A program made the position numbers and the translations under genes. Below are positions 22,626 to 53,400 of a stretch of DNA of 64,000 nucleotides, piece after piece. Numbering within the stretch: the stretch's first letter is position 1; every line of letters begins with the position of its first letter. The stretch is from a virus. The notes beneath the pieces were generated by a model that was not told the DNA's origin, did no database searches, and saw only the letters and a list, made by a program, of their open reading frames with translations. The stretch is taken from the IMG/VR virus record IMGVR_UViG_3300037189_022865, positions 26,597-90,596 of that record; one strand, 5' to 3'.

Positions 22626-22672
22626 AAAAACCCCCTGTCTTCTCTTGCGAGAGGGCAGGGGGATGTTTTTTG
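22626..22672. terminator. Bidirectional terminator between convergent gene blocks
   Basis: CCCCCTG (22631-22637) pairs with CAGGGGG (22656-22662), with an inner TCTC/GAGA stem. A-rich sequence precedes it and GTTTTTTG follows, so both strands carry a U-tract. It lies exactly where the plus-strand early block meets the minus-strand virion block. Confidence 0.85.
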
Positions 22673-25600: not shown

Positions 25601-27987
25601 CCATACTTTATCATTTGGTTGGTATTAGAATCTCTAGTTAACCAACCGGTTTTAAAATCTACAAAAGTAGCTTCCCCGTTTTGATGCACAAAAAGTCCGT
25701 CATATGTTGTAGCAAGTTTATTACCATCCTTATCTACCATTAAATCAGAAACTATTACACCTTCTGAAGAAACTTTGTCTCTTAGTCCTGGGGGTAGAGT
25801 ATTATCCAAGTCTACTATAACTCCCGCAGCTTCAAAAATTTTATCTAAATTATTTTTTATTCTTTTAATGCTGGGATGAGACTCTAATGAAATAAAATCT
25901 GCCTTAGTTGCTTTGGCATACTTAATAGCGTTTTGCTTAGCTTCTTCTTTCTTTTGTGGGTTTTGTTCTAAAACATATTGAAAATAAGCGTGAATTAACT
26001 TACCTTTATTTTTAAACTCATTTAATCTGGCTTCAATAGTTCTATACACATCTTGAAAAGTCAACCTTTCACCTTGTATAGTTATTGTTTCTTTTATTTC
26101 ATCTTCGTTTTTATCATAGATATTTACACCATTTCTAGCAAAAACTTTTTTCGCTTCATATTCAGCATCACTGTTAGAATAGCGTTTTTGCTTAGAAGAA
26201 AATTCTCCAACTTCCACATCCCCAACAAATGAAGTAATACGTTTAGCTTTTTCTCCAGTACTAATGTTTTCATAATATACAGAATTATCAAAAGAAGACC
26301 AGCCCTGTGCTTGTTTTTCTAACTCATTAATATAATCTATTTTAGGTTTCTTTTTAGCTCCAAGTCCATTGGCTACAGCTTCCTCGGCTTCATCTAATCT
26401 TTGATAAGCAGTTCTTATTACGTTATCAGAAATAGTCATACCCCTTTCAAAAGTATTTAAAACTTCTATTAGCGTTGAGGTAGCTGTCAAGGAATTTTTT
26501 AATCCTAAAAAGTTTCTAATATAATTTAAAAAGTATTTTAGATATAGATTATATTTATTACTTATAGCTTGCTCTCCTAAATACTGAACAACACTCTCTT
26601 CTCTATCCTCTATCCCATTGTTAACATAAGATTCTTTATAAAGAATTTCAAATGTTTGTGGAGAAGTTTGCATTAATGTAGATACAAATGGGTGATAATA
26701 TTCGTGAAGCGGAGTATCTTCGGTCGCATAAGCAACGTTAATTACTACTATCTTTTCTTTACCCCTGTTTACGTATTTACCTCTAAATTTTTGGTTTGGG
26801 TCATCTATTATTTGATACGGTATTGAAAATCTAGCAGAAAGCTCTTCTAATAAATTAGTTAACTTTGTACTAGCTTTTACCGGTAAGAAAACATTTTCAT
26901 TTGTTTCTGGAAATAAAGTAATTGTTTTTGGTGTAGAAACATTATTTTTTACATTGTTTTTTACAAATTCTTTAAAACCTGCGATGTCTTTATTAGAGCC
27001 AAGTATATGTATTTGATTTTTGTTTTTTACTATAAAGTTTCTACCTTCTTCAAATTCTTCTCCCCCAGGTCCAGCATCTTCAACTTGCGGCAATATAACA
27101 GAATCTCCTCCTAAAGAGTTTATGTACTCTAAAGCTACATCACCTTCACCACGAGTTCCTCCAGCAAATAGTTTAGTGTCTCCTACAACAGGATTTTCCA
27201 TATTAAGTATTACGGGAATATTTACACTAGCTCCTGTTTGAAAATATTTTTCTTTTTTAAGTAAACCTTCTAATTCTGGAAAACTTAAAACATACTCAAC
27301 TAACTTAACTACTTCTGAGTCAGTTAAATTAAACGATTTTTGTATATTATCTAGTAATTTATCTAAAAGAGTGTCGTCAGAACTTTTAGCAGCTACCCAA
27401 AGATTTGCTAAATCAATTGAAGAAAAAATATTAGCGACGTTAAAATCCCCAAAAAAGTAACCAGCTTGATTACTTTTATTATCTGTTATTTTTGTGGCTT
27501 TGTTTTTATCAAAATCTTGTGTTTTATACCAGTCCCCCAAAGTGCCATGGTACACCACATCCTGCATTTTACTTTGTGGAAAAATAGTATTTAGATATTG
27601 AGAGTACTGTTCTTTAGTTCCTACAGAAGCTAACTCCGGTGTTGTTTTAAATACATAATCTACACCTTCTTTTTTTTCTTGAGTAGCCATCATAGGACTT
27701 TCTACAATTACACTATCTCCTTCTAACCTAACGTTTAAACCATCAAATCTAGAATAAAAAATTCTAGCCATTAGTTCTTCTGAAAAAGTTGAACCCCCTA
27801 AAAAATCTGCATATTTAGTTCTAAAGAATACTGGGTTTCTTCGTATTGCAGTTAATATAGCATTGTAGACGGGTTCGTTAAACGAAGGAGTTACTGCTTC
27901 AGTATTATACAATACCAAAGCAGCTTCTTCTCCGTGCATTTCTACAAGCCTTCTCCACTCTTCTGAGTTTTTATTTGGACAGACCAT
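22684..27987 (-). CDS. Polyvalent-type virion protein: ART, zincin and nuclease domains
   Basis: 1767 residues from the ATG at 27987 (TAATG overlap with the preceding gene; a GTG at 27993 is two codons upstream). An N-terminal region with VVYHGTLGDWY (~146) and GYFFGDFNVANIF resembles ADP-ribosyltransferase folds of polyvalent proteins. At ~429 EDTPLHEYYHPF carries HExxH for a zincin-like metallopeptidase. At ~767 TYDGLFVHQNGEATFVDFKTG is a PD-(D/E)XK nuclease site. A hydrophobic segment (LIWWLTMLAIYSWAF) is near the C-terminus. Such multi-domain proteins are packaged and ejected to protect incoming DNA or reprogram the host. It ends with TAG. Individual domain calls are by motif and need profile searches. 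Confidence 0.7.
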   Translation of the reverse strand: MVCPNKNSEEWRRLVEMHGEEAALVLYNTEAVTPSFNEPVYNAILTAIRRNPVFFRTKYADFLGGSTFSEELMARIFYSRFDGLNVRLEGDSVIVESPMMATQEKKEGVDYVFKTTPELASVGTKEQYSQYLNTIFPQSKMQDVVYHGTLGDWYKTQDFDKNKATKITDNKSNQAGYFFGDFNVANIFSSIDLANLWVAAKSSDDTLLDKLLDNIQKSFNLTDSEVVKLVEYVLSFPELEGLLKKEKYFQTGASVNIPVILNMENPVVGDTKLFAGGTRGEGDVALEYINSLGGDSVILPQVEDAGPGGEEFEEGRNFIVKNKNQIHILGSNKDIAGFKEFVKNNVKNNVSTPKTITLFPETNENVFLPVKASTKLTNLLEELSARFSIPYQIIDDPNQKFRGKYVNRGKEKIVVINVAYATEDTPLHEYYHPFVSTLMQTSPQTFEILYKESYVNNGIEDREESVVQYLGEQAISNKYNLYLKYFLNYIRNFLGLKNSLTATSTLIEVLNTFERGMTISDNVIRTAYQRLDEAEEAVANGLGAKKKPKIDYINELEKQAQGWSSFDNSVYYENISTGEKAKRITSFVGDVEVGEFSSKQKRYSNSDAEYEAKKVFARNGVNIYDKNEDEIKETITIQGERLTFQDVYRTIEARLNEFKNKGKLIHAYFQYVLEQNPQKKEEAKQNAIKYAKATKADFISLESHPSIKRIKNNLDKIFEAAGVIVDLDNTLPPGLRDKVSSEGVIVSDLMVDKDGNKLATTYDGLFVHQNGEATFVDFKTGWLTRDSNTNQMIKYGEEFGINDSRLSRAYLEKALRTVMLKEKFPDLKFRSIKLLVIDAMGNPTAMELDLEPYLFTIQNYYKTNHPKIHDEMEKKGLFKLSNYKGVTQSLIDLHSEISHLSRDEKLIYLKNKLSDLYLRSSKEQVERDPRKKALSIKYSQAILEIEKEPTIDLKSKTPDLGFFWKIKNFSDVDNPRIQVLHKVLLEAKQRLNIFSKNLEENHDNLFLKLVNERVGPNDKMNKAALKGLEMVHFASMATWNPILAAGVVAAHNAIASKTQMDTRDFYAFMWRKSDEIGGTGYYLNTKNTYVKNGKEVPMTKAEQDYRNYVHKTMKEEYNKFAKEIVGFDEVTRQPIYRYSSLGLPEEMPLDFMPRIPKSINEIREEEIKTSGYGAGLMGLKTTVGEEFKRSLNGFFEDKYGRGSEGIQFRYFKHTDSPGIVDAENHSFNGQIAFKMFMMSMKTKQEMDPLYDLARGVRNALDEELMESGEEARYSNTVQWLDDEIYTQILGRQKTEKVLTRAVRWKAGKLTEKVTGIKEGTDVRISEIEIVRWLRTSVSFLTLGFKVISPIRNGIYVTLQTISQSTKNIVTKGLSKIYGVDVEELGQIDLVGGKIVFNDYIAKAIMGKPEESKLWNIAKAINWLPDNYVISDEDIKKMEAVSKIGLGENAYAAYSLFENFSSLWHLAGLLKSTKVLDKDGNKISLWDAHDDKGGWNMGVRGVVENSDGTTTELKELTAMEIKALKRTHERVSGSYRKDEKIAMEASVWGDFLAQFQKHAFQYVKVLFGSKYRDRSIGKYVLVGKKPDGMPMYEWHSEILQGQIKIFFAALFAAIQGKHMDYMTGGDLGEATLKNARIRAMSSLINTLIWWLTMLAIYSWAFDDEEEKTPLGKSAARIVTDMSRFLSLKDILDATDKPVVSLEVANKIGKSTWALLTEGMSGEVDKQGWPKGLRGFLTLTPGYSSRSQIEQILGNDEDPSFLYGIYPLK

Positions 27988-30900
27988 TAGCACTTATTTT
28001 TTTGATTATAGACTTCTATAAAGTCTGCTGTTTTCATTCCTTTTTCTAATTCTTGTAAAAAGGTTTTGTCAAAAGTAAACATAGTTAAATTAGTTCCAGT
28101 ATTAGCCGATACAAAAGCATACAGCCCATTACCAAAATAAAGTATATCTCCCTCTTTCTTTTTAGCAAGCGGTCCTTGTGCAGGGGTATAAACTAAACCA
28201 CTTGCATCTTTAGTTAAACTAATATTTCCAACCATTTCAACGTCTAATTCGTTTTCTTTAATTGCTATAGTTAGCTCTGGCGATTTTTGTTGAACATTAG
28301 TTGGCGGAAGTATTCTGTCTATATAATTCAATTTATTATAAAATAAATCTACAAGACCTCTATTTAATATTTTATACCGTCTAACCGAATCAAAAACATC
28401 TTTAGTTATAACTATTGTTGCTCCATCTTTTACTTTTTCATTTAATATCACGGCAGTTTCATCTAGTATATCTTGTTGTTGCTGCTCAGTTAAATCTTTT
28501 GGTATGTTAAAAAATGGTAACTTTATAGAACGTTCTTCTTTAGGAGAAATAACAATAGTAGATGCTTCTAAATCTTTACTTGTTCTTTCTTTTCTAAAAT
28601 ATTCTGATACCGTATCAACTACAACGGTAGCGTTAACATCGGTGTTAAGAAACTTTTTAAAACCTTTTCTAACCCTTTCAATTAATTGAGTCGAGTACAT
28701 AGGTCTTTGTTCAGTTGCTCCTAAAATATAAGTAGTTACTCCCTCAGATTCTTGTATATCTTTAACGTAATAAGCAGTGGCTGTTGTTGGATCTACAGAA
28801 TATAAATCAATTGCTAACACACGATCAAATTTTTGTAAAGATAGTTTTTTCTTTTTTAATCTTATTTTACCCCCTTGAATAATGCTACTATTAACAAGTT
28901 TATAATCTCCAAGATTAAACAAGGCTTTTAAATCAAACGATTTATCTAAATCGAAAAGAGAAAAATTATAAGCACTAGGAGTTTTATCCCCTATTTTTAC
29001 ATAGTAGGACATACCACTTCCAGGAGTATCTACAAGCATAAACACACCTTGATCATAATAACTTATAAATCTAGGGGTAGATGCGTTCGGCGCTACCGGG
29101 AAAACTAAATCATAGTGTACAGTAGAAACAGTATCTTCTTCTTGAGATGATTGGTAGTTTGTACTTCCAGCATAAATAGTTTTTTTGATTTTAGTTTGCG
29201 GCACTGGAACTTTAACTGTAACTGGTTTTGCTTTTGGAAATCTACCAATAAGATCTGGTCTGGCCCTAACTAACTGATACAAAAACTTGTCTTTTATACT
29301 CAATAGGTTTGCGTCAGTAGTGTAAGAATCTTTTGGAATAACAGATTCCATGCGAGCAGCAAAAGCTTTAGCAAAAGCAAATCCCCATTCGGGAGGAAAT
29401 ATTAATGAAAAACCGGTTTTTTCATAGTACATACTATCGGTCATCAAAGAGTATTTAAATAAATCTAATGCCAATTGCTTGCCACTAATAAATTTTCCAT
29501 CTCCAATTGGAACTTCTTCTGTATTATACAACTTTTCAAATCCGTCCCTAATTCTTTCTATTACTTCATCATCATCTAATTTGTCAGCTACTATCATAGC
29601 TCTATTAACGCCATTATAACTACTAAATTCTAGTGAGTTTACAAATGAGTTGTCATCTAATTCATTGTGTACTTTAAATAAAGTGTTTACAAATTCTCTT
29701 TGCCAAGCTCTAGCATTTTCAGCGTTTCCTTCAACATAATTTGAAACTTCGACATCCCCTATTTTAAATTTAAGATTGGAAGTTAAAAACTTAATTAATT
29801 CTTTCGAAACTTCTCCAGCCTTGTCCATAGAGTCATACGCACTAAATAAGTTTGCTTCTTTAGTTATATTTTCTACAAATCTTTGAACTGTTGGTGAATA
29901 TATATTAAATATTTGCTCCAAAACATTTCTAAAAGTTATTGCTGTTCTGTAAAGCGCCTTAACGTGTGGCAAATTTAATATGGCGACATTAGAAAAAGCC
30001 GAAGAATTAGAAGGCTCAACTTTTCTGGATGTTGTTTTTCTTATTACGCGGTTAACATAGTTAGCTCTAATTTGATTGTTAGCTGTGTACATCATAGAGC
30101 TGAATTCTTTAACAAACTCTAAAGCTTCTTCTTTTTCTATACCAGTGATTCTGCCAACTATTCTTTCTGCAATGCTCTTGATTTCTCCTCTAGTTCCAGT
30201 GGCCTCCCCTTTAAAGTGAGCTAAACTTTCTATGTTATCTATAAGCGAAGTTATCTGCCACATTTTATTCGGCAAATAACGAAGGCCTTTGTATATCATT
30301 GATTGTTTAAATGTCTCTTGACCAAGAGGTATCATTGCTCGCATAGTTTCTAAAAGAAACAAATTGGCAATAAGAGTTTCAGCTTCTGACGCTTGTCCAG
30401 TGTAAACTTTTTCTAGAAGTTCATCAGTTAAACCTTTAGTACTTTTACCTTGTTGGCCGTACAAACCAAATAATATACTATTAAGAGGTAAAAAGCTTTG
30501 TCCAGATATTTTTGTTTCGGAGATTTGTACGTTATACTCATCTTTTAATATTCTAGCCACTTCAGGCCACAAGTCTTCATTACTTGCGTAAGTTTTATGC
30601 AAGTCTTTACTTATCTCCTCAATACTTTCTTGTGTCCATCTTTTTCCTTCACTGATCTTAGCTATTACTGGAGATTTAAACATCAAAGATACTGAATTAA
30701 GAGGTACCCCACTAGCAAGAAGCGTCAAAAATATATTAGCATTTGTGTTTGTAATGCCCAGCAAGTGAAGCTTTTGCATTTTAACGTTGTCAATAGCAAG
30801 GTTAATTAATGTATCTATGTCTTCGAACACATTAGTACCATCAAAAGCTATGCGTCTAAATGCATTTAAAGCTTTTCCATTTCATTTTATAAAAGAAGAA

Positions 30901-31496
30901 GAAACAACTTCATTAGCTCCCTTACCAGAAAAGATTTTCATATCCGAAAATTTTGGATTCTCCCTTCCTGTTATTCTTAAGTGAGGCATCTTTTCGATGA
31001 GCCTTTCGATAGTTGGAGCATCATTTTCTTGCATTAAAGTTTTTATCTCCGCACTATTAACAGACATTACAGTTTTAGTTCTGGTGTCTAATATTTCTGT
31101 TGGAGGAGTAGCGTCAAATATATAACCAAACACTTTAGAGAAGTTAGCTACTATACCAGTAAGAGCAATACCGGAATAAGTGTTGTATCTTATTTTTTCT
31201 TGTGTGGAGTAATCGGTAAGATTTCCTTTTGGATTAAGTGCTTCGTCAGCTTGTTTTTTAGTTACATAACCACTTACTTCCTTACCATTTTTCTTTATTT
31301 CTAACCGAGTTCACAACTCCATTATAGACTCGGTTTTATTTATAAAATCATACCTCTCAACTATCACAGAAGCTAGTGGAGAAGGGGATTCTACTCCTTC
31401 AAGTAAAACCCCCATTCCTTTTTCCAATAACATTTGCTTAAGTTCTTCTTTGGTATATTCTACATCATTTATTATATATTTACAAGTTACTGGCAT
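27987..31496 (-). CDS. Large virion protein, probably the C-terminal part of the crAss virion RNA polymerase
   Basis: 1169 residues; TGA-Trp at 31311-31313 and 30882-30884 join three open segments. It starts 10 bases before the stop of the giant polymerase-containing gene, in another frame, so translation is probably coupled. The N-terminal ~200 residues (QEKIRYNTYSGIALTGIVANF and SAEIKTLMQEND) resemble the part of crAss virion RNA polymerases that follows the DxDxD barrel; in cellular enzymes that part carries bridge helix and trigger loop. The remainder is helical with no enzyme motif visible. The polymerase assignment is inference from order and pattern. Confidence 0.55.
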
Positions 31497-34400
31497 ATCT
31501 GTTTAATTAAACCACTTTCTTCAAGAGTTTGTAGGAACTTATCATCATCTAATTTTTCGCTAAGTTCTTTTTTAAGCTCAGATCTAAGAGTTATTATTTT
31601 ATCAAATGAAATAGGTGTAAGAAGATCTTTTCTATTTTTCATGTTCCTCATATTCGTAGAGAAATTATGAACAATAAAGTTTTTAGCAGCGTACTCAGCT
31701 ATATCGGAAAGACTTTGTAATATTTTTTCTTTATCTTCAATAGCATTTTCAATTGCTTCTTTTTGAAGTTCTGATGCTCCTTGTAACTGTTTAGTTAATG
31801 ATTCTAATTGTTTATTTACCTTTAATATGTGTTTATCTAAATACTCATATAGTTTGTAACCATCAAAATCAATTAATTCGTTATTTTTAAATCCATAAGG
31901 CTCATTAGCCTCAACTATTAATTTAGGATCATCTTGATGTTCTGGATCTATTCCTTTAATAAGTTCGTTTAAGTTTATAGTTTCATTTGGGTAATCTTTT
32001 CTAGCTACAAATAATGTATCAATATCGTAGTCAGATCCATGATAATAAACTATTAACGATGGGGCAATAATAACGTTTCCTTTAGAACCTGGTGGAACTG
32101 GATAAAAACCAACAACTTTAAGTGGAACTAAAGAGTGGTAGTTTGATGTGGGGATACGGAAACCAATTATACCGTCTTTAATTTGTTCCATATATGGTCT
32201 ATATGTTTCAGGTAGTATAACTTCGCAAAATCCGTTTTCGTCGCGCCATTTAAGATTACGCATTACCCCATCAATTTCTACCGGTCCCAAATCTGCTTGA
32301 AGAACAAGTTTAGAACCTGGGAATCTAAAGCCGGTAGTTGCTTTTGTAAATATTGAAGATAAATTGGAAAGTACTCTATCTCCAATCAAAGGCATGTCTA
32401 ATGGAACCTTATTTTTTCCTGTTCCTAAACTGAGCATTTCGTATACATCTCTTGCTCCCGGAAGTCCCTGAAGTAACGAGGTAAGCATCCTGCGTATTTT
32501 GTTTTCAGTGCCTTTTGTAACACCACCTTTTCTAGTAAGCCTTAGTTTTCTAGATAAACCTCTTAATCCATTTTCTATTATAAATGCGTTTGCTTTGTGC
32601 ATTTCAAAAGTTTCTGCTGTATTTTTACCATTGGTATTCATCATAGCAGTACCTTGAGACTTATTAGCAACGCTACCTTCAACGCTCTTTGCCGGATTTA
32701 ACTGGAAACGTAAGTTCTCATTATTAATATTAACAATAGCTTTCTCGTCTAAACTTGAAGCAATAATTCTACCAGTTTCGTCTAATTTAGCTTTTACAGC
32801 AGGGCTACCAATTTTAACAGCAGAAGCGAAAACCATTTGGTCTACCCCTTTTGCTCTCATGGCATCTGCATAAGAAGCTAGGTGAGGATATTGTTTTATT
32901 AACTCCGGAGTTAATACTTTAACAGAATATTTAATAGCTCTAGGAACTCCATTTTCTATGGAGAAATAAACAGGTTTTAATATGACGTCCGCTTTAGCGT
33001 CAAAACCATAAGCAGAGGCAAGTTTCTCGTAAAACTCCGGCAGCATAAATCCTTCAGCATCTGAAGCTTCATACTCTTGGTCATAAGAAGAAGCCAGCAT
33101 ATCGTGAAGTGTTGGGTCTACTACTCTCTTAAGATCTTCTACAACTAAAACTTTAGAGGTTTTTGGCATACCAAATTTCTCATCCACCAAAAGAGTATCT
33201 CCAGTAGCTGTTGCTATCTGGATACGTTTGGTTTGATCTTCTTTAGATTTATAAAAAGTTTCGTCTCCGTAAACTATTTGGGATAAAGAATATTGGTTGA
33301 TTACATAGTTGTAATAAAAATACTCTAGTCCTTTTTTTACAGCAGCATTTTTCTGTTTAAAAAATCTTTCTTTTTCTTGATCAGTTAAATTGTTATCCCA
33401 TTTAGGTATTGTTGCTAGTCCAAGCAAAGAAGATGCTTTACTAATTGCCCAAGTAGGTATCTGAACTTCTGGAGGAGAATTTAATTCTTCTTTAAAAGCT
33501 TCAAACAAACCGTTTTCCCCATTTACCATGTTAGCTACATGTTGTTTAACTGCTTTTAAAGCTTGCTGCTCGGTCATACTATCTACATTCCCACTTAATC
33601 CTGCAAATGTAAATTCTTTCCAACGCTCTCTATAAGTTTTAGAGTTATTAAGTTCGGGATGAACTAAACTTCCATCAGGATTTTTTGCATCTGGATCAGG
33701 TCTATTTTTTTGAGCTCGTATTATTTGTAATATGGCTTCATCAATAGTCTCTTGAGTTCTAAAGCTATTAACTAAAACAGCTTGAACGCTCGTACGGTTA
33801 GACGGAATTGGAAGAGCTTGATAATACTTACCTCCTCTATTTGCTAAAGTAACAAAAAAGTTTCCAGCAATATTTCTTTCTCTAAACTCTTTAAGATTTT
33901 CTTTTCTAAGAGTTTTAGCAAATTTAGAACCGTCTTTCCATTTAATAGAATCATGGTCCACAGTTTCAAATATGTCGTTCTTTTTTGTAAAGAAAATATT
34001 GTCTTTCAAAAACACATCATTACTAGAAATTTTACCATCTTTAAGTTCAAAAATAGATAACTTTTTAAATGGTAACTTTTCTTTAATTCTTTGGAATATA
34101 TTGAATACATCTGTTTGCCAAGATGCGTCTATCCAACCATATGCTTTTTTACCATCGCCTCTAGTGTAACTTCCGGATTCGGCTAACGTATAATGTGAAT
34201 TAATCATGTTAGCTATTTCGTCCAAAAGTCCGTATTCATTTTCAAGCAATTCTGTTCCCGTAATTCTATCTTCAGGATTATCGGATTCACTTTTTTGAGC
34301 TGCGTCTAAGGCTGCATTATATCTAGAAGATATGCCATCTATACTTTTACTAAGTCGTTCAAATACAGCTTCTTTTGAACTAACTGAAGCATCACCTAAT

Positions 34401-37400
34401 TTTTTAGTTACGCCTATGTCCTTTAAAAATGTATTAACAGCTTTAGTTTTATCCTCAATATTTTGACTGGCTTTTGCTTTTGCTATTTTTGTTTTTAAAT
34501 CCTGCGTAAATAAATCTCTTCTATTTTCATTAACGGCTTTTTGCACGTAATCATTAAAAGCAAACTCCACATTAGCTACAAAAGTTCTTTGTCCACCGCC
34601 ACTTCTTGCGATGTATCCAGACATTTTATAGACATACTTAAATCCTTTTTGCCAAACATATGGTTTAGATTTTCTAAGGGAACCAACAGAAGAAAGCAAT
34701 GATTTAATAAAATCTATGTCTTCGTACAAATAATAAACTTTAGCAACATTTTCTTTAGGTAAAGAAGTTATTTCTGCTATTTCATTAATTACATCATCTA
34801 CCTTTTTACCAGCCTCAATAACGAATTCTCTGTATCTAGTTGGATTACTTTCTAAATCATTTCTAGTTACTTGTGAAACATCTTCATTAAGGGTATCTAC
34901 TACTGCATAAATAAATTTATGGCTAGCGTCTTTTCTGAAAGAAATATTTTTGGGTAAATTTGGATCATTAAGCTTTTTCAAAATGTCAACAGCCATATTA
35001 GACATATAGTTATTAACAGCAACCTTAATGTTTGGTTTGTCTTTAATGTTGTAAGTAAAGGTTCTAGCCATTGCTTCTAGAGATTCTTTAAGGCTTCCCT
35101 TAGGTATTGAAGCAACTTTAGAAACAATGATTGTAAAAGCTGTGGATAAATCGGCGTAGTGTTTCTCGTTTTTAACAAAATACTCTATAGAAATCAAGCG
35201 TTGTTTAATAGATCCAGTAAGTTTAGTTTTAGGATCTACCAACATGCTGTCGTAAGTTTCATCAGAAATTCCAGCCATTTCATCATCTTCTTCCAATTCA
35301 GACATTTCATCTGCTGAAACTTCTTCTCCTCTTTCTAATCTAGCTGTTATGTCTTCCCTTAATATTCTAATTTCTTCTAACTTTCTATCTCTAATGTCTT
35401 TAAGAAACTCTATAAAATCAACCCTGTTATTTGCATCAGAAAAATAATCATTATTAAAATTATTTAAGAAATCTTTATTGTTAAGTGCTTTTGTTACGGC
35501 TCTTTTAACAGTATTAATTTGATCTGGAGTATAACCTTCTGGAAAATCTACAGCGTCCATATCTTTTACTGTTTGCAAATAAGCCATGGCGTCTACAGTT
35601 ATTTCAGCAAAAGATTTTACAGGAACATTTCCATTTTGCTCCGCCTTTCTTCTTTCTACTTGATCTCTAACTACTTTTTCTAATATAATATCTTTAACTA
35701 TTTTAAATTCATCATAGTTATCAAATACCGCTCTAACATTAACCGAAGATCTTTCTACAGATTCAAACCCCCTAACAGATTTATAAAACGTTTTATTTTC
35801 TATTAAGTTAAAAAATTCTTCTATAGAATTCATGTGGTTATAACTAAAGCCTAACAAACGCTTTAATTTTTCCCAAAGCCTAGACAATAATGACTTACGT
35901 TTGGTGACAACAAAATCTTCAAATTCTTCAGCAAGTGCTTCTTCTAAAGCCTCTGGACTTAGGTTTCCATACTTTTCTTGAGCTAAAGCTAAAGCTGCTA
36001 TTTGTTCAGAAGGTTTTAGGTATTCCCAAAATATTTTGTGAAATAATTCGTGCCTAACTACTTTTGAAGAAACGCCTCCAGAAGCAAGTTTAGCAAAGTG
36101 CAGTACGCCATTTTTATATAACCCCCAAACTTGTTTGCCTTGGTTATTAACAAGTTTACCATATTCAACTATATTAAAAAGTTCTCTTGGAGCATTTCCG
36201 GAAACAATTTCTCTTAACATAGAGAAAAAACTTCTAGGCGTATATCTATCTACAAGATTTTCCACTTCTTTCATACTAAGTGGGGTTCCTATATCTTCTG
36301 TTAAAAAACTTTTAGATCTACTCAGAGTTCCTTGTTTAATAACGTCTTTTAAAAATGATACCCAGTTATCATACGCGTCTTGGTTATTTATAAAGTCAAT
36401 TGCTAAATCGTCATCAATATTATACGCCTCTTGCATAATATCTGCAGCCTCAGCGTCTGCGTTATTGTTAATCCATTCTAACAAATTTTCAGCAAATCTA
36501 ACTACTTTATTTTCAGCAGCCGCCACTACTTGTTCTACTTTTTGTTCAATCTTATCGTCAGGAGTTTCTTCTATTACTGTATTAATATCTTCTGTTTTTA
36601 CAACTGTGTTATCAACTATATTAGTAAAAGCTGCGGCTAAGTTTATTTGATTATCCAAATGCTTTTGCCTAGCTTCTCTACCAAATTCACTTACACCTTT
36701 TAAATATTGACCATTTATGTTGCCGCCTTCTAAAAATGTGAAAATTAAACCATCAACAATCATTTGATAAATAATATCTTGCGGTAAACTTTCGTCAATT
36801 AAAAGAGGTCTATATGGTATCCCTAATTCGTCTGCAACTTCTTTATAAGCCGCGCTAATTTCGTTTATTCTAGGAATTATTTTAGAGACGTCTGTATTAT
36901 ATTTAACTACTAGTTGTAAAAATTCTTCTGCAAATCCAACCCCTCTATAATTATTTGCCCCGTAATTTTTTCTAACAAAACTTAGCAATGGAAACAAATC
37001 TTTGGGAGAAACAGCTGTAACTCCTAAAAGCTTAATTAAAACGGAAGCCCTTAAAAAAGGTGTTGGTATTGAAGCGTAAGGTTTAAGGTTATCTATTACA
37101 CCTACGGAATCAATTAAATCTTGTTTAACCATTTCCTTAGTAGTAGTTTTTATTCCTAGCCTACTTTGTACAGCTGAAAGTATTTTATTATTTACTTCCG
37201 TTTCGTAATACAACTTTTCTTTAGCGTTCTTTCTAAACTTTTCAAGAGCCTCTTCTAAAGTGTTACTTTTTAATGTGGATATAAATTCTGCTATTTCTTC
37301 CTGTGGAAACATTTCTTCTATAGTGTCGGCAGAAATAGTGTCTATTCCAGCAGCAACTAATAAAGCGTATTTTCTACTTCTTACAGTTTCAACTTGTTCA

Positions 37401-40400
37401 GTCGGAACAGCGTTTTTATTTTTAGCTACTATTATTCTAGTTTTATCTATTCTAGATAAATGACTCACAAATTGATTTACGGGTTGATTCTCAATGTTAG
37501 TATCCTTATTATTTACACTGTTAGGAGATGGGGTTCTTAATCCAAATCCTCCAGATATTTTGGTAAGATTACCATCGCTATCTTTAGACCCTATGAAAAT
37601 ATCAGATAAATCTTCACTAGTTAAAATATTAGAGTGAGGTATTTTTGTTGGATCAGATATAACATTAAGATAATTAACAATAGCTTTATATCTAGCTGAT
37701 TGCTCTAAGCCTCTTTGTTCTAAAGACGCCGCGTAAGTTCTTAATCTAGATTTCAAATCCTCTGAAATTAAAGGATTATTTGCTCCTCTGTTATCTCTTC
37801 TAATAAAAGTTATTGGCCCTAGTAATGTGGCAGCTTCAATACTTGTATTTGATTGTGTACCATTAGCTGTAGTTGTATAGTTGACTTTATAATTTCTAAG
37901 TAAAACTAGCTTACCAGCTCTCTCCCCTTGATCTATAGAAGCTACTAAGTTTTGAGATCCTATATCATTAAAAACACTTTGAGCAGCACCTTTAAAAGCC
38001 CTTGTGTCATGCTTCCATTTTCCTTTGTCGTCTTTAACTCTATTTAAATCGCCATGAATTAAAAAGTCAAGTTCTGAAGCAAGTTCTAATAGTTTTGGAT
38101 CAATGCTTTCTCTTTTTAAATCTGGAAAAAGATTTTTAAAACCTGCTTGTTTATTACTTAACAAAGTTATTGTTTTCATAGATTCATCGTGATGAGCATC
38201 TGAAAAAACTTTAACTAAAGTATGCATAGGAAAAAACTGCATGTTTTGATAAACAACAGGTTCCCCAGCTTTTATCTTTCTATAAACATCCGGTAAATAA
38301 GCGGATTTAAGTAAAAGATCTTCAAACTGTTTTAACTTATCTATAAAGTCGTAAAGCGGTTTGTATTTCTCGTCATTACTGTTAACTGGTTTTGTTGCTA
38401 ATTGTATGAACTGAGGTTTAACAACATTCCCAGTTTTTAACTTGATGTTTTGTATTATTAAATAAGGTACTCCAGGTCTAGGTAATTTACTTGCAGGTAT
38501 GTCTTTTCCAAATACTTTTCTTGCATCGTTTATACTTTTAAAAGCTATTATTTTACAATACCTAGAAAAGTTTTTAATAACTTCTTCAGCGTTTTCTAAA
38601 GCATCTCTCCCCCAAACTTGGTCTATATATTTTTCAAGTAGTGGTGCTCTAGAAATTTTACCGTCAGAATCTAGCATATCTGCTAAGTCTTCTTGTGGTT
38701 TACCATCGTATGTGTATTTTATACTTTGACTTCCTTCTTGTACGTACAATGTTTCGTGACCAGTAACTTGTCCATTTATTTTATAAATGTTATACAAGTT
38801 TGTATTTTGTAACGTAAATTCTGGAAGTTTCGAAGTATTTATACCAACATTTCTCTCGAAATCTCCAAGTTCTTTGTCGTTAATAACTCCAACAATTTGA
38901 TAGTAAGTGTTCCCGCTATCACTCCCTGTTATTTTTTTTACCAAAACAACACGCTTTGCCTCTTCTCCAGTAGCCTTTCTAGAATTATCTATAAACACCA
39001 TTAACTCATCTCCAATACTTAGTGGAGGTATACCGGAATCTTCGTTTCCTTCAAATATAGTAAAAGCTGGATTTTCTAAATTATACGGTTGAGACTTTTG
39101 AGAAACCCCTGTAGGTGGAGTACTGGGTGGTAAATTATTGTCAAAATTAATAACGACTGGTTCATTTATTACATGGAGTCCAGATTCTTCTTGTGGTTGT
39201 TGATCAAAACCCACTGAAGTTCCTTCGTTATCTGTGGCAGTTTTATTTTCTCCCGGAGCGTCTGGAGTTTCGTCTGGAGTTCTTTCTTCACTAGGTTTAA
39301 CTGACTCTTCTTTAGAGGCTGGTCTAGTAATATCAACAGAAACATTTCCAGTTATTTCTGAGAGTACTTTTATTTGCTCATCTAAGTTTTTTATAGCTTC
39401 TTCCGATAAATTATCTTTTTTAGGATAGGGGGCTACTTTAGGATCTACAAAATGTGTTGCTCCTTTAGTGTTAGCAAGCTGCGCATATGATGTTGCTCTT
39501 GAGGTTGCTGCATACATCCATTGGTTGTATATTGTTGGATTAGAAAAGTTTTTATTATCTTCAACAGATATATCAACGTATACCTCATCAACCGTGATTC
39601 CCATAGCACTTGGTGCTAAAAGAACGTCAGCGTCAGGTAATGCTTTTTTATACTGCTGTAATTTTTCTTCGTTACCAACAATAATAACTCTACTTCTTTG
39701 TGGATTAGCTGCCTTAGATTCTGCAAACTTTTTTACAATGCTTGTACCTGCTTCTGCATAAGTACCAAATATATTAATCATACTAACCGATGGGTCTAAA
39801 GAAGACGCAGTTGGTATTTGACTAATTGGCGTGTCAGATTTAAATGCATTTTGTAAATCAACAACTTCAGAAACACCAGAACGATACGTAGTAGATAGGG
39901 GTGTTATTTGTTTTAAATTTTGCGATAATGCTACAGAATGTCCTAAGGGATCTCCTTTAGGAGTTCTTTGTCCTTTTCTATATTCAGCTTTAACCTCTTC
40001 AGTTCCTTCATAATATTCTTGTTCAGTAGTAACAAAGTTTGCTATATAGTTATCATCTAAAGCTGGCTTAGATATATTTCCAGAAACAGGTTGATTAGGG
40101 TCGTATAAAAATAGATATTTAACTCTGTTACCTTTAGTTGTATTATTATACTTATTTACAGCTCTAACAAAATTGTTTATGTCCCCCCTATTTAAAGCCC
40201 CAGCTTCATCTACTATAATAAATTTTACTTTTGGGGACAATGTTCCGTTTTCTAATTCAGTGGTTAAATCCGTTATTTTCTTTGGATTATCTGGATGTCC
40301 CAATGATTCCGCAATATTTTTTGCAGCTTTATCATAAGCAGCCGCACTTGCAATTTCTTCATTAGCATACCCCATTACATATTTAAATAGTTTGGAAACT

Positions 40401-43400
40401 ACTAAAGATTTTCCAGCTCCAGCTGGAGCTTTTAAAGCTGCTCCATTTTGAAATATTTCTGCATCGGAAATAACGCTAGAAGAAGCAAAAGTGACAAGCT
40501 CTCGAACTACTCTAATTTGAGAAGATGAAGGAACTGGAGCAGTCGGATTAGCTTTTAAATATTCTCTAATCTTTGTTAAAAATCCTACGTGACTAAATCC
40601 AGATTCTTGAGCATCTTGTATTTGTGCTATTCCAACAAAAGCAGCATGAAGATTTATAAGGGCCAGTAAAGTTTCCTGAGGAACTTTTCCGTTATAGTTT
40701 TTAATGTTCTCTTTAAACTTAATAACATCATAATCTTTATTAAATTCTATTAGCGGTCCTAATACACTTTTATCAGGTTCCTTTTTTTCTATAACATTTA
40801 AAACTTGAAAAATACCTCTTAATGGGTTCTTTACAGCTTCCGATTTTATATAGTCGTCGTACACAGCTGGAGTAGCTGAAAGTGTTCCTGCTATATCATT
40901 GATAAAATCTAAACCATTTAAAAGCTTTGACAAGGTTCCTCTTAAAGCTTCAGCTATTTCATCAGCTCTTTCATCTTCGGTTAATAAATCCATAACCGCC
41001 ATAGAGCCAAGGATAGGACCTGATTCTATAAGTTGCGCTAAAGAAACATCTTTAATTACTTTAGTTTTGGTTTCCTTAGTTTCTATATCTGCTTCTTCTG
41101 CTGCGGTATCTGCTGTTTGTTCAGAAGTAATAACTATTTCATTAGTATTAAGCGAATCGGCAAAAGATAACACAGCTTCAGCATAGTGAAGATCTTCTTT
41201 CTTATTCTTAAGTTCTATATTTCTTACATTTTCTTTTGTAAGTTCGAGCAATATCTCTAAATCTTTAATTATATCTTCAAGTTCTTTAGCAGTTTCCTTA
41301 TAAGGTTTTTCTTCTATTTTAGATAATGCTTTTTCGTGTAGAGCTTTAGCAAAATTTAATTGTTTTTCAACAGCAGAAACATCGTCATAAAATTGAGAAA
41401 TACTTCCATCTTCGTACTCAGCAATTTCAAAAAGCCTTTTTGGACCTTGAAGAAGCTCATCTAATACATCTTGTACATAGTCAGAGTCAGATTTAGATAT
41501 ATCATAAATTGATATTTGAGAGTCTATTTTAGATTGCATTTCTTTAAAATCTCTCATTTTATTTTTTGCTCTTCTAAAACTTATAAGTTCAGAATACAAT
41601 TTTGCATCTTCTTCTGTTATAGTATTTTCTGCTTTTTCATTTACTAGCATATCTTCAAGATCCAATAAAGAATCTTGTTCAGTCATACCTCCCCTTACAA
41701 GAAGTTCTTTTTCCTTTTGTTCTATAAGAGAAAGAGTTGTGCTAATCGCATCTTTTAATTTTAAAGCTTGATCTGGATATATAAAGGTACCTTCTTTAGT
41801 AACTTTATCATAAACATCCATAACCGACTCTATTACATCTTCTAATCTATTTTCATTTAGTTTGATATAATTTATTAAATCGTTTAAGTGATCAGCATAA
41901 AACATAGTTCTTGCTGTATCCAGTTTATTTTTTTGCCTAAGCATGTTAGAACGCTTTGCAACAAAAGATTTAAAACTTTGCGGTGTAGTTTGATCGTTAG
42001 CTAAAAAAGTTTTTGGGCCGTCTCTAAGTGTTTTATATTCAGAAAGTTTATTAGCTGATACTAATTTATTGTACTCTTTAAGCCCTTCTCTCGGATTAGT
42101 TAATCTATCATAAACTTTACCCAAGTCTTCAATTGCATCATTGAGGTCTTTTTTCTTAGTAACTAATTCTGCAAGTCTAGCTTCTTCAGGAGATGTTTTT
42201 GGACTTTGTTGTTCTCTACCTTCTAAATTATCTGTAGAAAAAGCATTCATTATCCAACCAGCTTTTTGTTTATTAGGTATTTTCGAAGATACATCTAATA
42301 TCTGCCTATCTAAATCTTCAACTAAAGAATAAAGATTTACTAATCTATTTCCAATTCCTCCAGCATAATTTTTAAGCATTTGAAATCTTGCTTCATCTTT
42401 TTCTCCATAAACTGGAGCAACCATGCCGTTTGTAGTCTGTAAGTAATTAGCTTCAAGTTTAGCTACATGTTCCTTATAAAACTCTATCCTATCATTTACT
42501 TCTTGTGGAGAATCTATTCCAAATCTTTTAAGTGAGGCTTCGCCCATGTCTTTAAAAGATTCGAGTTTTTTCATAAGCAAATCAGTGCTTCCACTCTTAA
42601 AAGCAGTTTGAGCTAAATTAGAAAGTTTCTCTAATTCGTACAACTTTAACTTAATTGGATCTGGTTCTTGTTTCATAGCTTCCAAATCTATTAAATTATC
42701 TAACTCTCCTTGAACTCTCATGTTAGCTGTGAACTCAGCAGCTTTTACCATGTCTTTCATGACATTTCCTTGATCATCAAGTTTTACTCCCCCACGTATT
42801 ACATAATTACCATCTTCATCTAAAGACACTTGCTCAGCAATAGTATTATACTGCTCTTCATTTATTTCAGTATTTGTGTCGCCGACTTGATGAGTGTATT
42901 TAACAGTGCCATCAGGTTGTTCTTCCCTTGTAAGTTTTCCTTTCGTATCGTCTTCGTTTTGTACTAAAGAAGTGTTCACAAAATCTGTGTAAGCTTTGTT
43001 GAGGTCTTCTTTAGCTTTTTGTTTTTGAAGTCTTTCGTTTTTTGCTTCTCCCAAAACACCTCCCCCAAATGGTCTTCCAACAACAGGTAAAGAAGTGGCA
43101 ATAGCAGATCCACCACCAATAAGTGCACCGGCACCTACTGCTTTTATGCGATCTTCATCCGTCATGTATATACCTTCAGACACTAAATTATTAAGTGCGG
43201 AGTAAGCGTTTTCTAACCAGCTTTGTTTAAAGTTGTTACCCTCATTTACTTTTTGATTGGAATACTGTATGTTTTCTTCCATACCTTCAGAGAAAGCTTG
43301 GATAGCGAGTTCTTTACCCAACTTCATATAATCTCCTCCTCGTCCTTCCATGTATTTTTTAAAGCCCGTTGCTTTTGAAGGAGCTGCTTCTATAAAATTA

Positions 43401-44347
43401 TCTAATGTTGGGGAGTCTGCTAACTTTAATCCAAACTTGTTAGCTCTGCTAGCAACAGCCCCTTTAGATAATAAAGGTCTAAATAGTCTAATAAAAGCTG
43501 TGTCTGTAATTGCCCCCAACACCATGTCAGAGGCAAATACATTACCAAAATTTTTATCTGCTATTTGAGCTATTTGCTCGTCAGTGTAATCATTTTTACC
43601 AGCGTCCCTATCTGCCTTTAGTTTAGAAACAGTAGCTTTTCAAGCGTCATGAGCTTCAGCACCAGATTCATGTGTCCTTAACAAAGTTGATGCAATTCTT
43701 TCATCTAAGACACTAACAATTTTAGCGTAATTATTTGGACGTAGTGTTTGAAAAAGTTTTGTATAACTAAGTGGTTTAGCTAAAGATGAAACTATTCTTG
43801 CTCCGAATCCTACTTTTCCTAACCAAGCTCCTCCAACAAGACTTTCAAATGAAATGCCTATAGTTTCTCTTAAAGAAGTGCCCAATTGCCCAGGATCACT
43901 GAGCTGTTGCATAAATGTTCTTTCGTCAAAACCCATTTCTCTAAAAGTTGGAAAAGCGTCATCTATAGAATAACCTAAAGATTCATTAAGATCTCTTAAT
44001 AAATTTGCATCGTATCCTTCTGAAAAAGTAGTTTTAGGATTTCCATCTAATAAATTCATTGCTCCATGACCTAAAGAACTTACCCCAGTAGCTAAAGCGA
44101 CTGGAGCTTTTAAAGTTCTTAAACCTAGATTTCCTGCAAAGTTAAAAAATGTATTTAATCCTGTTTGATTATTAAACCTAAGATTTTGTTGGTCTTCGTA
44201 ATCTCTAAGACCTGAGTCATAGTAATTTCCAAATAGATTATTTAAAAATGTATTTGCAGAGTTCATTCTTTCACCTTTTTCTAAGTAAGCCGGTTCTTTA
44301 AAAGCAGCTGACGTAGCAGGTGATATAAAATCGCTAATTTTTGGCAT
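31487..44347 (-). CDS. Giant virion protein: SF1 helicase, zincin and DxDxD RNA polymerase regions
   Basis: 4286 residues, with one TGA-Trp at 43640-43642 joining the first 235 codons to the rest. The N-terminal ~330 residues are Gly/Ala-rich and amphipathic (VGAGALIGGGSAIATSLPVVG), as in phage ejection proteins. An SF1 helicase follows: Walker A KAPAGAGKS (~1309), IIVDEAGAL (~1379), and MGITVDEVYVD with YAATSRAT (~1600-1620). KVVRHELFHKIFW (~2767) is an HExxH zincin. Near the end, FASAVKIGSPAV (~3840) and YYHGSDYDIDTLFVARKD (~4106) match the two-barrel crAss virion RNA polymerase, DYDID being the metal-binding DxDxD. This protein is expected inside the virion and to be injected to transcribe early genes. 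Confidence 0.85.
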
Positions 44348-44362
44348 ATATAATTTTATTTA

Positions 44363-46330
44363 TTAGTCTGATTGTGCTTGCAAAGCTTCGGCAGTTAACA
44401 TCCATTTAGTGTCTCTAGGTAGTATGTTCATAAAAAGATCTTTCATAATAAACATCTCCATTGCATTTGGTCCAAGAACTGAACCATCGTCTGCCAATAT
44501 TGGCTCCGCCTCTATTTCAGGTTGTCCTTTTTCATTTCACCTAGCTTGGTGAAAACTCACTACTTCTCTACCATTAACATAAGATTTTTTTGAAACAACG
44601 TACGCTGGCGTACCATCAACTTTTTTACCAAAAGGAATTGGCGTACTACCTTTTCCATTTATTAATGGTCTAAATAATTGATCTAATAATTTTTCTTGAG
44701 CGTTTTCGAAATCATTTCTAGCAGGAGCTATAGCATAAACATCTGCAGAACTTCCATCAAATCATCCTGATGCAGCTGGGTTTGGAATGATTACTGAACC
44801 ACTGGGAAGATGTGTTGTATATCCCATAGCAAAGCCTAAAGCTGGTTGTTTAGCTTTAATAACTCCTTTTTTCTCTTGTTCTGGAACTACTAAATTTTTG
44901 TATATAGTTTCTTTATCTGGACCGGTGTACTCTGTTATTTCTCCAGTATCAGCTGAAATTTTAAATACTTTTGATGTTCCTGCTTTTAACCCTGGAAGTA
45001 ATCTATCTGCAGCTTCTTGTGCAGCGCTAGTAGTGTTAAACGCCACATAATGTACATTAGACATTAAATTATTTTCCTTTTCCTCTTTATTATAAAGATT
45101 AATCAAATCTTTATCTGACATATTTGGATTAGCTTCTTTTATAGATTTTAACCTGTCTCTATTAACAGAGTTTGCATATTTTGGAGAAGTCATTATTTCG
45201 GAATAACTTAATTGTGTTTTTAAATCTTTATTCATAATGTCTACATCTCCAGGGGTTATATAACTGCCTGAAGGATACAAAGACATTAAACCGTATCCAA
45301 TTTTTCCAAGTAAAGATGCATTTTCATAATTAGTCTGTCCTATAATTTTAGGAGATTCCGCTCCATTACCCGCAACTTTTAACTTACTAGTAACAAATCC
45401 ACCATTATTGTCCATATCTACACCAAAGCCTTGTGTTTTAGCTTTAGTTGCTGCTTTAAAAGCTTCTTCAGCTTTGTAGTCTCTAACAAATTCATAATCC
45501 TTTCCAACTTCAGTAAACCCAGTTCTACCGGGTATAATATTTTGTTCATAGTCAGATGTAATAGCTTCTGAAAAAGCATTTGGATCTTGATCTGTCAATT
45601 TAGCCAGCATTTGAATATATGATTGATAAGCAAAATCACTGTTTAACATTGCCTTCCAACCTGTACTAGCCTCCTTATAATCCTTGCCTTTTAACTTAAC
45701 TTTTTCAAATACATGATAACCATCTAAAGTAACGTCTTGAGTAGCACGCATTTCTTCGGTAGTTCTTTCTGGAACTTTTGTCATGTACTCTTCAAAGTTT
45801 TTAGGAAGATCATAAGCATTTGGAAGATCAATTGCTTCTAAGGTGCTTCAAGTGCCGCTGTCTTTATCTAGTGTGGTTGCTCCTTGTCTATTATAAAAAG
45901 ATTTTAGAGCATTAAGTTGCAAAGTATCTACCCCATTTTCTTTTGCTCCCAATCTTTTTCTAGCATTTTGTATAGCAGCGACTTCTGTATTATAGTTATT
46001 CTGTATTGCATACATTTCTCCATTTGGAGAGAAATCAGTTTTTATTTTTCTTTCTAACTCCCTACGATCTTTAGTGGCTTGAGAATAGTCCCCATTGTAT
46101 TTACTTACAATTGCATCTACCGCATCGCTATACTCCTTCATTTTTTCAGCTGCTCTGGGCTTATCAGGATTTCTAGCATTAATGTAAGTATCTTTTAGTT
46201 TAGAAAGAGCTTCGTAGTTAACATCATATTGCTTTTGCGCAGCTTCTAAAGCTGTAGCAATAAATTCCACAGGCGGAGTGTAAAGGGACGCTTGGTAAGG
46301 CGTCCCCTTGTAAAATCTATTAACGGCCAT
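44363..46330 (-). CDS. Virion (cargo) protein with three TGA-Trp codons
   Basis: 655 residues joined through TGA at 45848-45850, 44762-44764 and 44537-44539; only the joined frame gives a full-length protein. The N-terminus is NRFYKGTPYQASLYTPPVEFI followed by a long helical region with many Gln/Lys (YDVNYEALSKLKDTYINAR), a pattern seen at the start of crAss-like internal virion proteins. It lies between the peptidoglycan hydrolase and the giant polymerase protein, the cargo position in crAss-like genomes. No enzyme motif is visible. The start overlaps the upstream stop by 11 bases. Confidence 0.7.
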
Positions 46331-50456: not shown

Positions 50457-53400
50457 TTATCGTTGTTTATTTTGGGTAGTAGTCATGAGCAAATCTAAAG
50501 AAACTTTAACATCGGTAGATGGCTCAAAGAAAAATCTTCCTCCTAAATAATAGTCTTTTAATCTGCTAGAATTAAAGAAAGATTTACTATAATTTATATT
50601 TGCTAAATTGGGTATTTTATCTATATAAGAAAATGGTGAGCTTTGAATAGAATTCCAATCAGATGCCCAAATAGGTTGGTTATTAGATACAGTTAAATCT
50701 CTAATGTTATTTATTCTCCACTGTCTATCCGTAAGTTTAGTAAAAGCTACTCCATTAGAAACATCTAGTTGAAAAGGAGATGGCGCAACTAAAGACTGAA
50801 CTCCAGATGATTGAGAGGAATTATAAAATATTACTTTACTATAAGGTGTTTCTGTTTGGAAAGTATTTGAGTTTACATCTACAGATGAACTGTATGCGCA
50901 AAGTACAACTGCTCCTGCTGTTTTTATAATTGGAGGCGACGTTGTTAATATTACATCAACAATGTGCGGGTATTTAATATCGTAATACTTTTGGTAATTT
51001 AACTCTCCATGCTTATAGATATTAGTATAATATTTTTGAGAGTAAAATGAATTGGAATCTGAAAAAGAATACGTAGGTATATAAGAGTGGAAAGATACCC
51101 AATGTTTACTTAAGAAAGAGTAGGATAATGTAAAAGATTTATTCTCAAAGAAATAAGAATCCTCTAATGATACTTTATTGTTAGTTCCTGTTTTATCTTT
51201 ATAGTAAAATGAATGGTTATTAAACCAAAGTCTATCGTTTGCAACAGAAACAGATCCGGGATTATCAGTTGTAGTTGGGTAATAAAGAAACTTAGAAATC
51301 CAGTTAGCTTTTATTTTATGATCTTTCTTAGTAAGAATTAATCTTTTATACCTAGGATCGTAAACACTTTTATATCCAAATCCAACTGGGGATACATGAG
51401 ATATAAATGGATATTCTTGGTTTGTTAATAACTTAAACTGCTTAGGTAAATTAAACTCCCCATTTTCTTGGAAGAAATTTCTCATACCAGACATTGATAT
51501 ATCCTCTATTGATCCTCCGAGCATAATAGGACTTCCTGAAAAAGAATCCATATAAAATGCACCGTATTCGGTAAGTAATCTAGAAGACCAATGCTGTTGA
51601 CCACCAAATCCGTTCATTGAGTTTTTCATTTCCTGTGGAGGAACTCCCAAGACTTCTCCAGTTCCAAGGTAAATAGTGCTAACATCAGTCTCTATATTTT
51701 GAGGTCTAGTCGGTATATAGAAAATAGACTTTGGAGTAGTTGCGTATAGTTTATTAAAGCTAACAAACAAATCTGTTACAGGTCCTGAATTACCTCCTAA
51801 CTCGTCTGTATAATTATTAGGAAGTATTATCCTACTTTTATCTTCTAAAGAAGTGTTATCGTCTTTTTGAGAATACCATATTCTATATGGGTGATCTTCT
51901 ATACAAAGATTACAAAACTTATAATTAAACGCTATTGGGTACTTTATTTCTAGTCCATCTAAGAATGAAAAAGAATTATTATAATTATATATCTCTGGAT
52001 TTATAATTACATCTTTTACGTCTGGAGAATATAACTTTCTTAAAACGTAAGAAAACATATCCTCTAAGTTATCAGCGGTAGTAGATGCATTCTTGTTTTT
52101 AAAGTAATCTAACTTCTGATCTTTAGCACTACTTCTGAATTCTGGATTAAAGTATGTATCTTGAGTTGGGAAAGAAAAGAAAACGCTATAAGCATCTAAA
52201 GTAGTTGGTGTGGTATCAGAAACAATTCCAGTTTGCTTAAAAGAGGATTCCATTAATGAAAGTCTGGATACAGAAGTATCACCTCCTAGTACGATAAAAC
52301 TAGTATTTAAGTTTGTGGCGTAAAGAGTTTTGTTCTGAAGCTTTTTATACTGAATAGTATATAAGTTTGAGAATACATCTTTAAACTGTCTTATACTTCC
52401 AAAGAAAGCTTTGTTTCTCCAGTCTCCTAATGGGGCAAGTGCTTCAGTACCGCTTTGTAACTTTAGTAAGTGAAGGGGTATGCTAACACTATTATTAACA
52501 AACGTCCAATCTTTTACATGCTCGTAAGCAGAGTTTCCTTCTACAGCGCCTTGATAAGTTTTATTAATAAATAAATTATTCTGAATATTATGGTTTATAC
52601 CACTAACAGTTGGAAGATTGTATTTATTAAAATACCTATAAGTTCTTCGACTGTGGACATTTACATCATAACTTTCTTTAGAGTTAAACTCTTTTAACTT
52701 AGTAGCATCGTTGTAAATATCAGAGTTTGCACTTACCCAGTTTTTATCTAAATAGATTTTCTCAAATTTAACGTAAGCTCCATCAAAAGACTTTTCTTTA
52801 AATACACCTTCTGAAGAAATGAAGGCAAACTCATTAGCTCTAATACCTATACCATTATTTATAGTTCAATTAAAATCAGCAGGAGCTAAAGACCCCCCAT
52901 TATAGTTTCCATTATAATTATTTGGGTAAACAGTAAATTCGTACCTTCTAGTAACACCTTCTCCTTCTTGAACTTCAAGAGGAACAAAAGCTCCTTTAGC
53001 CAAAACTGTTCTTTCAAATGTTCTATCTCCATAAACAAAATAGTGCCCGACTATATTTTCATTAGCTGGGTAACTTACATTTGAAAACAAAAGCCCCACT
53101 TTAAAATTAGTAACATTATTTAAAGAGTCTCTTATTTCAGCTCCAGGCATTCTATGATGTCTTATCGCAGTATTGTAGGGTTCTATTAAGTTATTCCAAT
53201 AATCTCTTCCCCAATATCCATCTGCATTGTTATCGCAAGTTTCTACATAAGGATAAGTAGTTTGAGTTTGATGATAACCCATATAACCTCTAATATAAGA
53301 GAAACCTGCATGTGGTTGTGCTGCTGCAGTAGATATTTGTTTCCATCTAAGGTTGGTAGAGATATTATCACCATAAACAGTTGTTGTTCCAGTGTCCCAG

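Follow-up and report, generated by a model that had tools for sequence, protein, structure and literature searches.

We analysed a 64,000-nt window of virus DNA, positions 26,597 to 90,596 of the 90,596-b IMG/VR record IMGVR_UViG_3300037189_022865. On its minus strand lies a late block of giant genes. One open reading frame (ORF) encodes a virion cargo-type N-terminus, a superfamily 1 (SF1) helicase, a zincin-type metallopeptidase domain and the first part of a virion RNA polymerase (RNAP). The following ORF overlaps it by 10 nt and encodes the rest of the RNAP core, and a gp65-like RNAP-associated protein comes next (Table 1). The arrangement is probably the rearranged late ejected-protein and transcription block of an environmental crAss-like phage, with an RNAP core made as two chains that would be packaged, ejected and reassociated.

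The terminase TerL belonged to the crAss family phrog_6681 (1.6e-100) and the portal to the crAss family phrog_6547 (3.9e-106). Judged by the sequences of TerL, portal and RNAP, the phage belongs with the Crassvirales. A trait of this order, a transcription block in which several giant proteins include one with a DxDxD RNAP, was also present. The nearest named phage was Cellulophaga phage phi14:2 (TerL: 35% over 97%). The only relatives closer than phi14:2 were environmental IMG/VR contigs (handles such as G004, L043 and L045 are used below where they must be told apart). Additional IMG/VR scans gave the same five lineages again, and a search for relatives in bacterial genomes found none.

Table 1. 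Features of the late block, with positions in the window
Feature	Position	Strand	Evidence or remark
Giant ORF, 4286 aa (code 4, TGA=Trp)	31487..44347	-	Cargo N-terminus, SF1 helicase, zincin, first RNAP part
gp67/gp47-type virion cargo N-terminus, residues 18-413	43109..44296	-	hhalign
In-frame TGA, codon 236, read as Trp	43640..43642	-	Phe at the equivalent position in relative G004
SF1 helicase core (predicted), residues ~1231-1660	39368..40657	-	Pfam and motif conservation
Helicase motif, Walker A	40406-40429	-
Helicase motif, Walker B	40202-40222	-
Further helicase motifs			YDPNQ residue 1414, YRS ~1488, DEVYVD 1587, YAATSRA 1612
Zincin-type metallopeptidase domain, residues ~2735-2830	35858..36145	-	HELFH at 36038-36052, then EE..A
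First part of two-barrel virion RNAP, residues 3677-4286	31490..33319	-	DYDID at 32018-32032
Stop/start overlap, 10 nt, ATGCCAGTAA	31487..31496	-	Splits the RNAP; relative L043 has ATGTCAATAA
Next ORF, 1169 aa (code 4)	27987..31496	-	Rest of RNAP core (gp66 ~1527 onward) and C-terminal region
gp65-like RNAP-associated protein, 1769 aa	22684..27993	-	tblastn to Crassvirales 'RNA-polymerase subunit' proteins; hhalign 97.8% to gp65 group
14-bp hairpin, T-runs on both sides	22631..22662	.	Likely bidirectional terminator at the end of the late block
655-aa protein, 3 in-frame TGAs	44363..46330	-	Syntenic with 661-aa ORF of G004; no family match
1372-aa upstream protein, peptidoglycan-binding/endolysin-like segment	46320..50438	-	PG_binding_1 74.8 bits; PHROG endolysins

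A sequence-only reading of this DNA had placed an SF1 helicase, a zincin and a virion RNAP in one polypeptide on the strength of their motifs. These motifs were indeed all in one frame: Walker A (APAGAGKS, residues 1307-1314), Walker B (FIIVDEA, 1376-1382), HELFH (2766) and DYDID (4106). Motifs alone are weak evidence here: the mean number of chance occurrences in the shuffled giant protein was 1.27 for DxDxD, 0.35 for Walker A and 0.03 for HExxH. It is homology that establishes the domains, and each of the three was backed by homology beyond its motif.

Direct searches with the whole giant protein gave no PHROG match and, by single sequence, no PDB match. No matches to phages were found by tblastn for the N-terminal 2783 residues or for the next ORF, and profiles were needed for both. 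Profile searches by segment, the check proposed earlier, succeeded for the helicase (Pfam) and for the RNAP region (PDB 6VR4, the structure of phi14:2 gp66); the zincin had no Pfam match. The N-terminus aligned with the group of phi14:2 gp67, PhiCrAssBcn24_75 and DAC15, that is, the phiCrAss001 gp47 type (hhalign 98.6%, E 9e-16), and with the gp32/gp45 group of the Intestiviridae (97.6%, E 3e-12). The helicase segment passed the Pfam cut-offs of AAA_30 (39.5 bits, cut-off 27), SLFN-g3_helicase (29.6, cut-off 24) and Viral_helicase1 (23.5, cut-off 21). SF1 motifs I-VI occurred in order and were conserved across four phages at 22-31% identity. By its sequence, the segment is an SF1 helicase with predicted enzymatic activity.

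The C-terminal 610 residues of the giant protein matched phi14:2 gp66 by tblastn (E 4e-12). As a profile against 6vr4_A, they covered chain residues 870-1567 (E 2.2e-28), with DYDID aligned to DFDID. Foldseek with a low-confidence model of an unsplit homologue ranked 6VR4 first (E 1e-8), followed by designed double-psi barrels. Contrary to the earlier reading, the giant protein does not contain a complete polymerase: the chain stops 180 residues past DYDID, and the remaining core is in the next ORF. This ORF, which includes in-frame TGAs at 31311-31313 and 30882-30884, matched a homologue of 5264 aa with an unsplit RNAP over residues 4154-5046 of the latter (26.7%). Its residues 93-283 aligned with gp66 ~1527-1659 (hhalign 97.9%, E 5.7e-13).

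The junction between the two RNAP parts was also present, unchanged, in a second strain with 98.9% DNA identity. Relative L043, ~50% identical in the RNAP part, had an ATG...TAA overlap of equal length (10 nt) in the same place. The split is not an error, because the junction recurs in both. Relative G004 had one 5264-aa ORF colinear with both window ORFs and thus an unsplit RNAP. In L045, a single 6063-aa ORF (L045:434-18625, plus strand; its last codons cross one TGA) comprised the cargo, helicase, zincin, RNAP, second zincin and gp65-like parts. As L045 holds all blocks in one ORF, gene boundaries shift while the domain order stays. A frame change within a long gene usually signals an indel error, and G004 is unsplit, but given the recurrent junction and the more than 1100 codons for which both downstream frames are open, it is very improbable that the split arose in assembly or sequencing, or by inactivation of the gene, and that the real product is one ~5450-aa protein. 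An intron at the split was rejected: Rfam was empty for 30400-31900 and for the window, and the frames overlap by 10 nt, which leaves no insert. Inspection of the window and L043 sequences for a -1 frameshift at the junction showed no slippery heptamer in common. Disrupted RNAP ORFs have been reported in the Zeta group and ascribed to unknown expression mechanisms (PMC7886860).

Some results weigh against a two-chain RNAP linked to a zincin. The bridge helix and the trigger loop are conserved elements of single-chain RNAPs such as gp66 (PMC10770324); in our phage, both were placed in the second ORF from the order of elements after the second barrel and would thus be on the other chain than DYDID. 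In the gp66 family, a single polypeptide holds both barrels together with these elements. Here no single polypeptide does, although the two chains taken together remain consistent with the family. The AlphaFold2 (AF2) model of the RNAP, made from the unsplit homologue, was poor (confidence score pLDDT 42). For the zincin domain, neither Pfam nor a Foldseek search for PDB folds with a low-confidence AF2 model (mean pLDDT 49) gave a match.

The span given earlier for the 4286-residue gene was covered by a single frame, on the minus strand (no strand had been named), but its full length needs TGA to be read as Trp. With the standard code (table 11), the TGA at codon 236 interrupts the ORF and leaves 235 aa and an open remainder of 4050 codons. 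The late block contained seven in-frame TGAs, and none of 17 late genes checked ended with TGA. TerL has four TGAs, two of which were opposite a TGG conserved in nearly all relatives in the alignment; at other positions, TGA and TGG were swapped among relatives ~88% identical. Moreover, the record encodes a tRNA with a UCA anticodon, and homology runs unbroken through codon 236. The length of 4286 aa was accepted because the TerL alignments, the TGA usage of the late block and the UCA tRNA back this decoding. A genuine stop at codon 236, with a gene of 235 aa and another of ~4000 aa, is hardly credible against these data, even though the standard code of a host would terminate there and the giant gene has one TGA vs 19 TGG. 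TGA to Trp reassignment, mainly in late genes, is known from crAss-like phages (PMC7886860; PMC12386605).

TAG=Gln recoding was rejected since it did not lengthen the late genes, whereas TGA=Trp did. The UCA tRNA lies outside the window (record G000, L002:7643-7736, minus strand). Its variable arm is long (class II or selenocysteine-like), and the charging identity of the tRNA is puzzling given TGA=Trp. Selenocysteine or serine, prompted by this arm, was rejected as the decoding of the TerL TGAs, which align with Trp. Near this tRNA was a transfer-messenger RNA (L002:8560-8808, minus strand; Rfam 62.9 bits, above gathering), which is odd for a phage reassigning a stop codon. The recoding is not confined to late genes, as the DNA polymerase A gene (4914-6794, plus strand) has two TGAs that must be sense. 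In a 1190-aa virion structural protein (50457-54029, minus strand), one TGA (codon 388) breaks the frame in the standard code.

In the zincin domain, HExxHK and the downstream EE..A were invariant in four phages at 19-30% identity, and the region aligned with the zincin region of cr50_1 (hhalign 94.5%). The core of the AF2 model (pLDDT 55-80) had the expected order: strands, then the helix with HELFH, then a helix bearing a Glu. In structure prediction, another check proposed earlier, this order of secondary structure fitted a zincin, and Foldseek was informative only for the RNAP, where it ranked 6VR4 first; model confidence was low and the zincin lacked a fold match. Among the genomes surveyed, a zincin was present in all five that fuse cargo and RNAP (window, G004, L045, L046 and cr50_1). 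Where the two are separate genes, five of the seven phages also carried it in the cargo protein (PhiCrAssBcn24_75, crAss002 gp32, cr107_1 gp40, crAssphage gp45 and Rudgehvirus), near the C-terminus; PhiCrAssBcn24_75 is even encoded on the other strand from its RNAP. The other two cargo proteins (phi14:2 gp67 and DAC15_78) had no HExxH. As separately encoded cargo proteins bear it too, the zincin cannot serve solely to cut the window fusion. By this distribution, it is a property of the cargo protein that was carried along into the fusion.

We propose that three ancestral genes, for a gp67/gp47-type cargo protein, a gp66-type virion RNAP and a gp65-type RNAP-associated protein, were given new boundaries. 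The cargo protein would have acquired the SF1 helicase, and its C-terminal zincin would now join the first RNAP part with the DYDID barrel. The second RNAP chain would be translated from the ORF overlapping the stop codon, probably by coupled termination-reinitiation. Both chains and the gp65-like protein may be packaged and ejected with the DNA, as proteomics of phi14:2 and phiCrAss001 suggests; the phiCrAss001 homologues are virion proteins by mass spectrometry (PMC10172136). The two RNAP pieces would then associate and transcribe the early genes. The helicase probably acts on the entering genome, as a translocase or as a strand opener for the polymerase. The zincin might perhaps cut the cargo/helicase part off the RNAP part, before or after entry.

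Two views of the giant chain have to be weighed. It is a serious candidate, if short of likely, that the chain stays intact, that helicase and RNAP together pull in or open the genome during transcription, and that the zincin acts on host proteins or has a structural role in packaging. Fusions of virion RNAPs to large proteins in crAss-like phages and N4 have been proposed to couple DNA translocation with transcription (PMC10770324), and the metallopeptidase-containing region of the N4 virion RNAP is required for encapsidation (PMC5512222). Two arrangements also keep the helicase on the RNAP chain: it is N-terminal in the window and C-terminal in cr50_1. However, a chain of 4286 residues must thread a narrow tail, which demands extensive unfolding. 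A motif search of the Steigviridae and Intestiviridae examined found no helicase in the RNAP block, and coupling of helicase and RNAP is therefore not general.

The earlier suggestion that the zincin processes a polyprotein, either within the capsid or once it has entered the host, and so yields a cargo/helicase fragment and a separately working RNAP fragment, is possible but tentative. The zincin was between helicase and RNAP in 4/4 lineages where both were seen, and helicase motifs and zincin ligands were conserved in 4/4 lineages examined. The survey is two-sided: the domain was never missing from a fused genome and was absent from two of the seven separate cargo proteins, but the other five retain it, once on the strand opposite the RNAP. 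Autoproteolysis or release by such domains has been proposed for phage polyvalent proteins including the N4 virion RNAP, and P1 DdrB is processed; yet the zincin-bearing N4 virion RNAP is packaged unprocessed (PMC5512222), and its full-length structure of 2025 is reported as an intact chain (PMC12633501). A cleavage site was not identified in the giant protein. Rather unlikely is the combined model in which the conserved overlap splits the RNAP, the zincin of the first chain frees the polymerase half after entry, and the enzyme becomes active only once the ejected pieces meet in the host.

The gp65-like protein had a second zincin-like motif (HEYYHPF, with HEYYH at 26692-26706 on the minus strand) with a downstream Glu. 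Its HExxH was conserved in L043, G004, L045 (HEVVH) and phi14:2 gp65 (HEIMH). The C-terminal part of the 1372-aa protein resembled DAC15 gp080 (hhalign 90.5%), and its sequence suggests a probable ejection or wall-penetration protein. The 655-aa protein is possibly a second cargo protein. A phage-encoded GroEL-type chaperonin (L002:5357-6967, minus strand; Cpn60 208.8 bits, PHROG 437 bits) adjoins TerL and might assist folding of giant cargo proteins. The phage record also had a Type-P3 twister ribozyme that passed the Rfam gathering score (L003:3163-3226, plus strand) and a sub-threshold pistol match at L003:76-134.

A fusion of helicase, zincin and RNAP is already known from cr50_1 gp059, as is a zincin on crAssphage gp45. 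As far as found in open-licence literature, the order helicase-zincin-RNAP in an environmental clade and the conserved split of the RNAP core into two genes with a 10-nt overlap are new. The same domain order occurs over one gene (L045, 6063 aa), two genes (G004) and three genes (window and L043), alongside relatives with separate genes. This natural series makes it testable whether ejected virion RNAP fusions must be cut and whether a two-barrel RNAP can work as two chains. An active split enzyme would mean smaller pieces for tail passage and a practical design for split RNAPs. Should the zincin prove inactive or irrelevant, one current proposal on giant ejected proteins would fall.

A cut in an RNAP gene is also found in cyanobacteria and plastids, where rpoC1/rpoC2 divide the largest subunit between the barrel with the catalytic Asp and the bridge helix and trigger loop that follow it. 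Unlike the window, this is a cellular multisubunit RNAP and an independent event. Among phages, N4-like virion RNAPs and polyvalent proteins combine a giant ejected RNAP with an HExxH zincin, and autoprocessing was proposed for them (Iyer et al. 2017, PMC5512222). However, the N4 enzyme is a T7-like single-subunit RNAP, unrelated to the two-barrel RNAP, and is packaged uncut.

Giant RNAP fusions are a recognised hallmark of crAss phages, with RNAP genes of up to ~6000 aa (PMC10136315). The earlier statement that polymerase and other ejected proteins are separate in the best-studied crAss-like phages is true of phi14:2 and phiCrAss001, but within the order such fusions are not unusual (crAssphage gp44, crAss002 gp33, cr50_1 gp059). 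In phiCrAss001, gp47/gp49/gp50 (PhiCrAssBcn24_75/77/78) form a set of ejected cargo with a gp47-type zincin protein as in the window (PMC10172136); the genes are separate, however, and the gp47-type gene and the RNAP are on different strands. crAssphage (Carjivirus communis) gp45/gp44 and crAss002 gp32/gp33 have a zincin-ending cargo protein directly upstream of a giant RNAP fusion. The crAssphage proteins are annotated as 'RNAP associated protein fused to zincin protease' (gp45) and 'RNAP catalytic subunit fused to unknown RNAP subunit' (gp44), and crAss002 gp33 has 4245 aa. Unlike the window, cargo and zincin have their own gene in both phages, the RNAP is joined to the gp65-like part, and the helicase was not found. 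phi14:2 (Steigviridae) has homologues of all three blocks, in an unchanged order, as gp67/gp66/gp65, all annotated as virion proteins by mass spectrometry, with DFDID at residue 1361 of gp66. It differs in having three genes, a gp67 with no HExxH and an unsplit RNAP, and the SF1 helicase was not found. Like the window, cr50_1 (Suoliviridae) combines three domains in one chain, gp059 (4774 aa, annotated 'DNA helicase'; with gp060): a zincin, an RNAP with DFDID and an SF1 helicase homologous to that of the window. It differs from the window in the order zincin-RNAP-helicase, in an unsplit RNAP chain and in an N-terminus with no detectable similarity.

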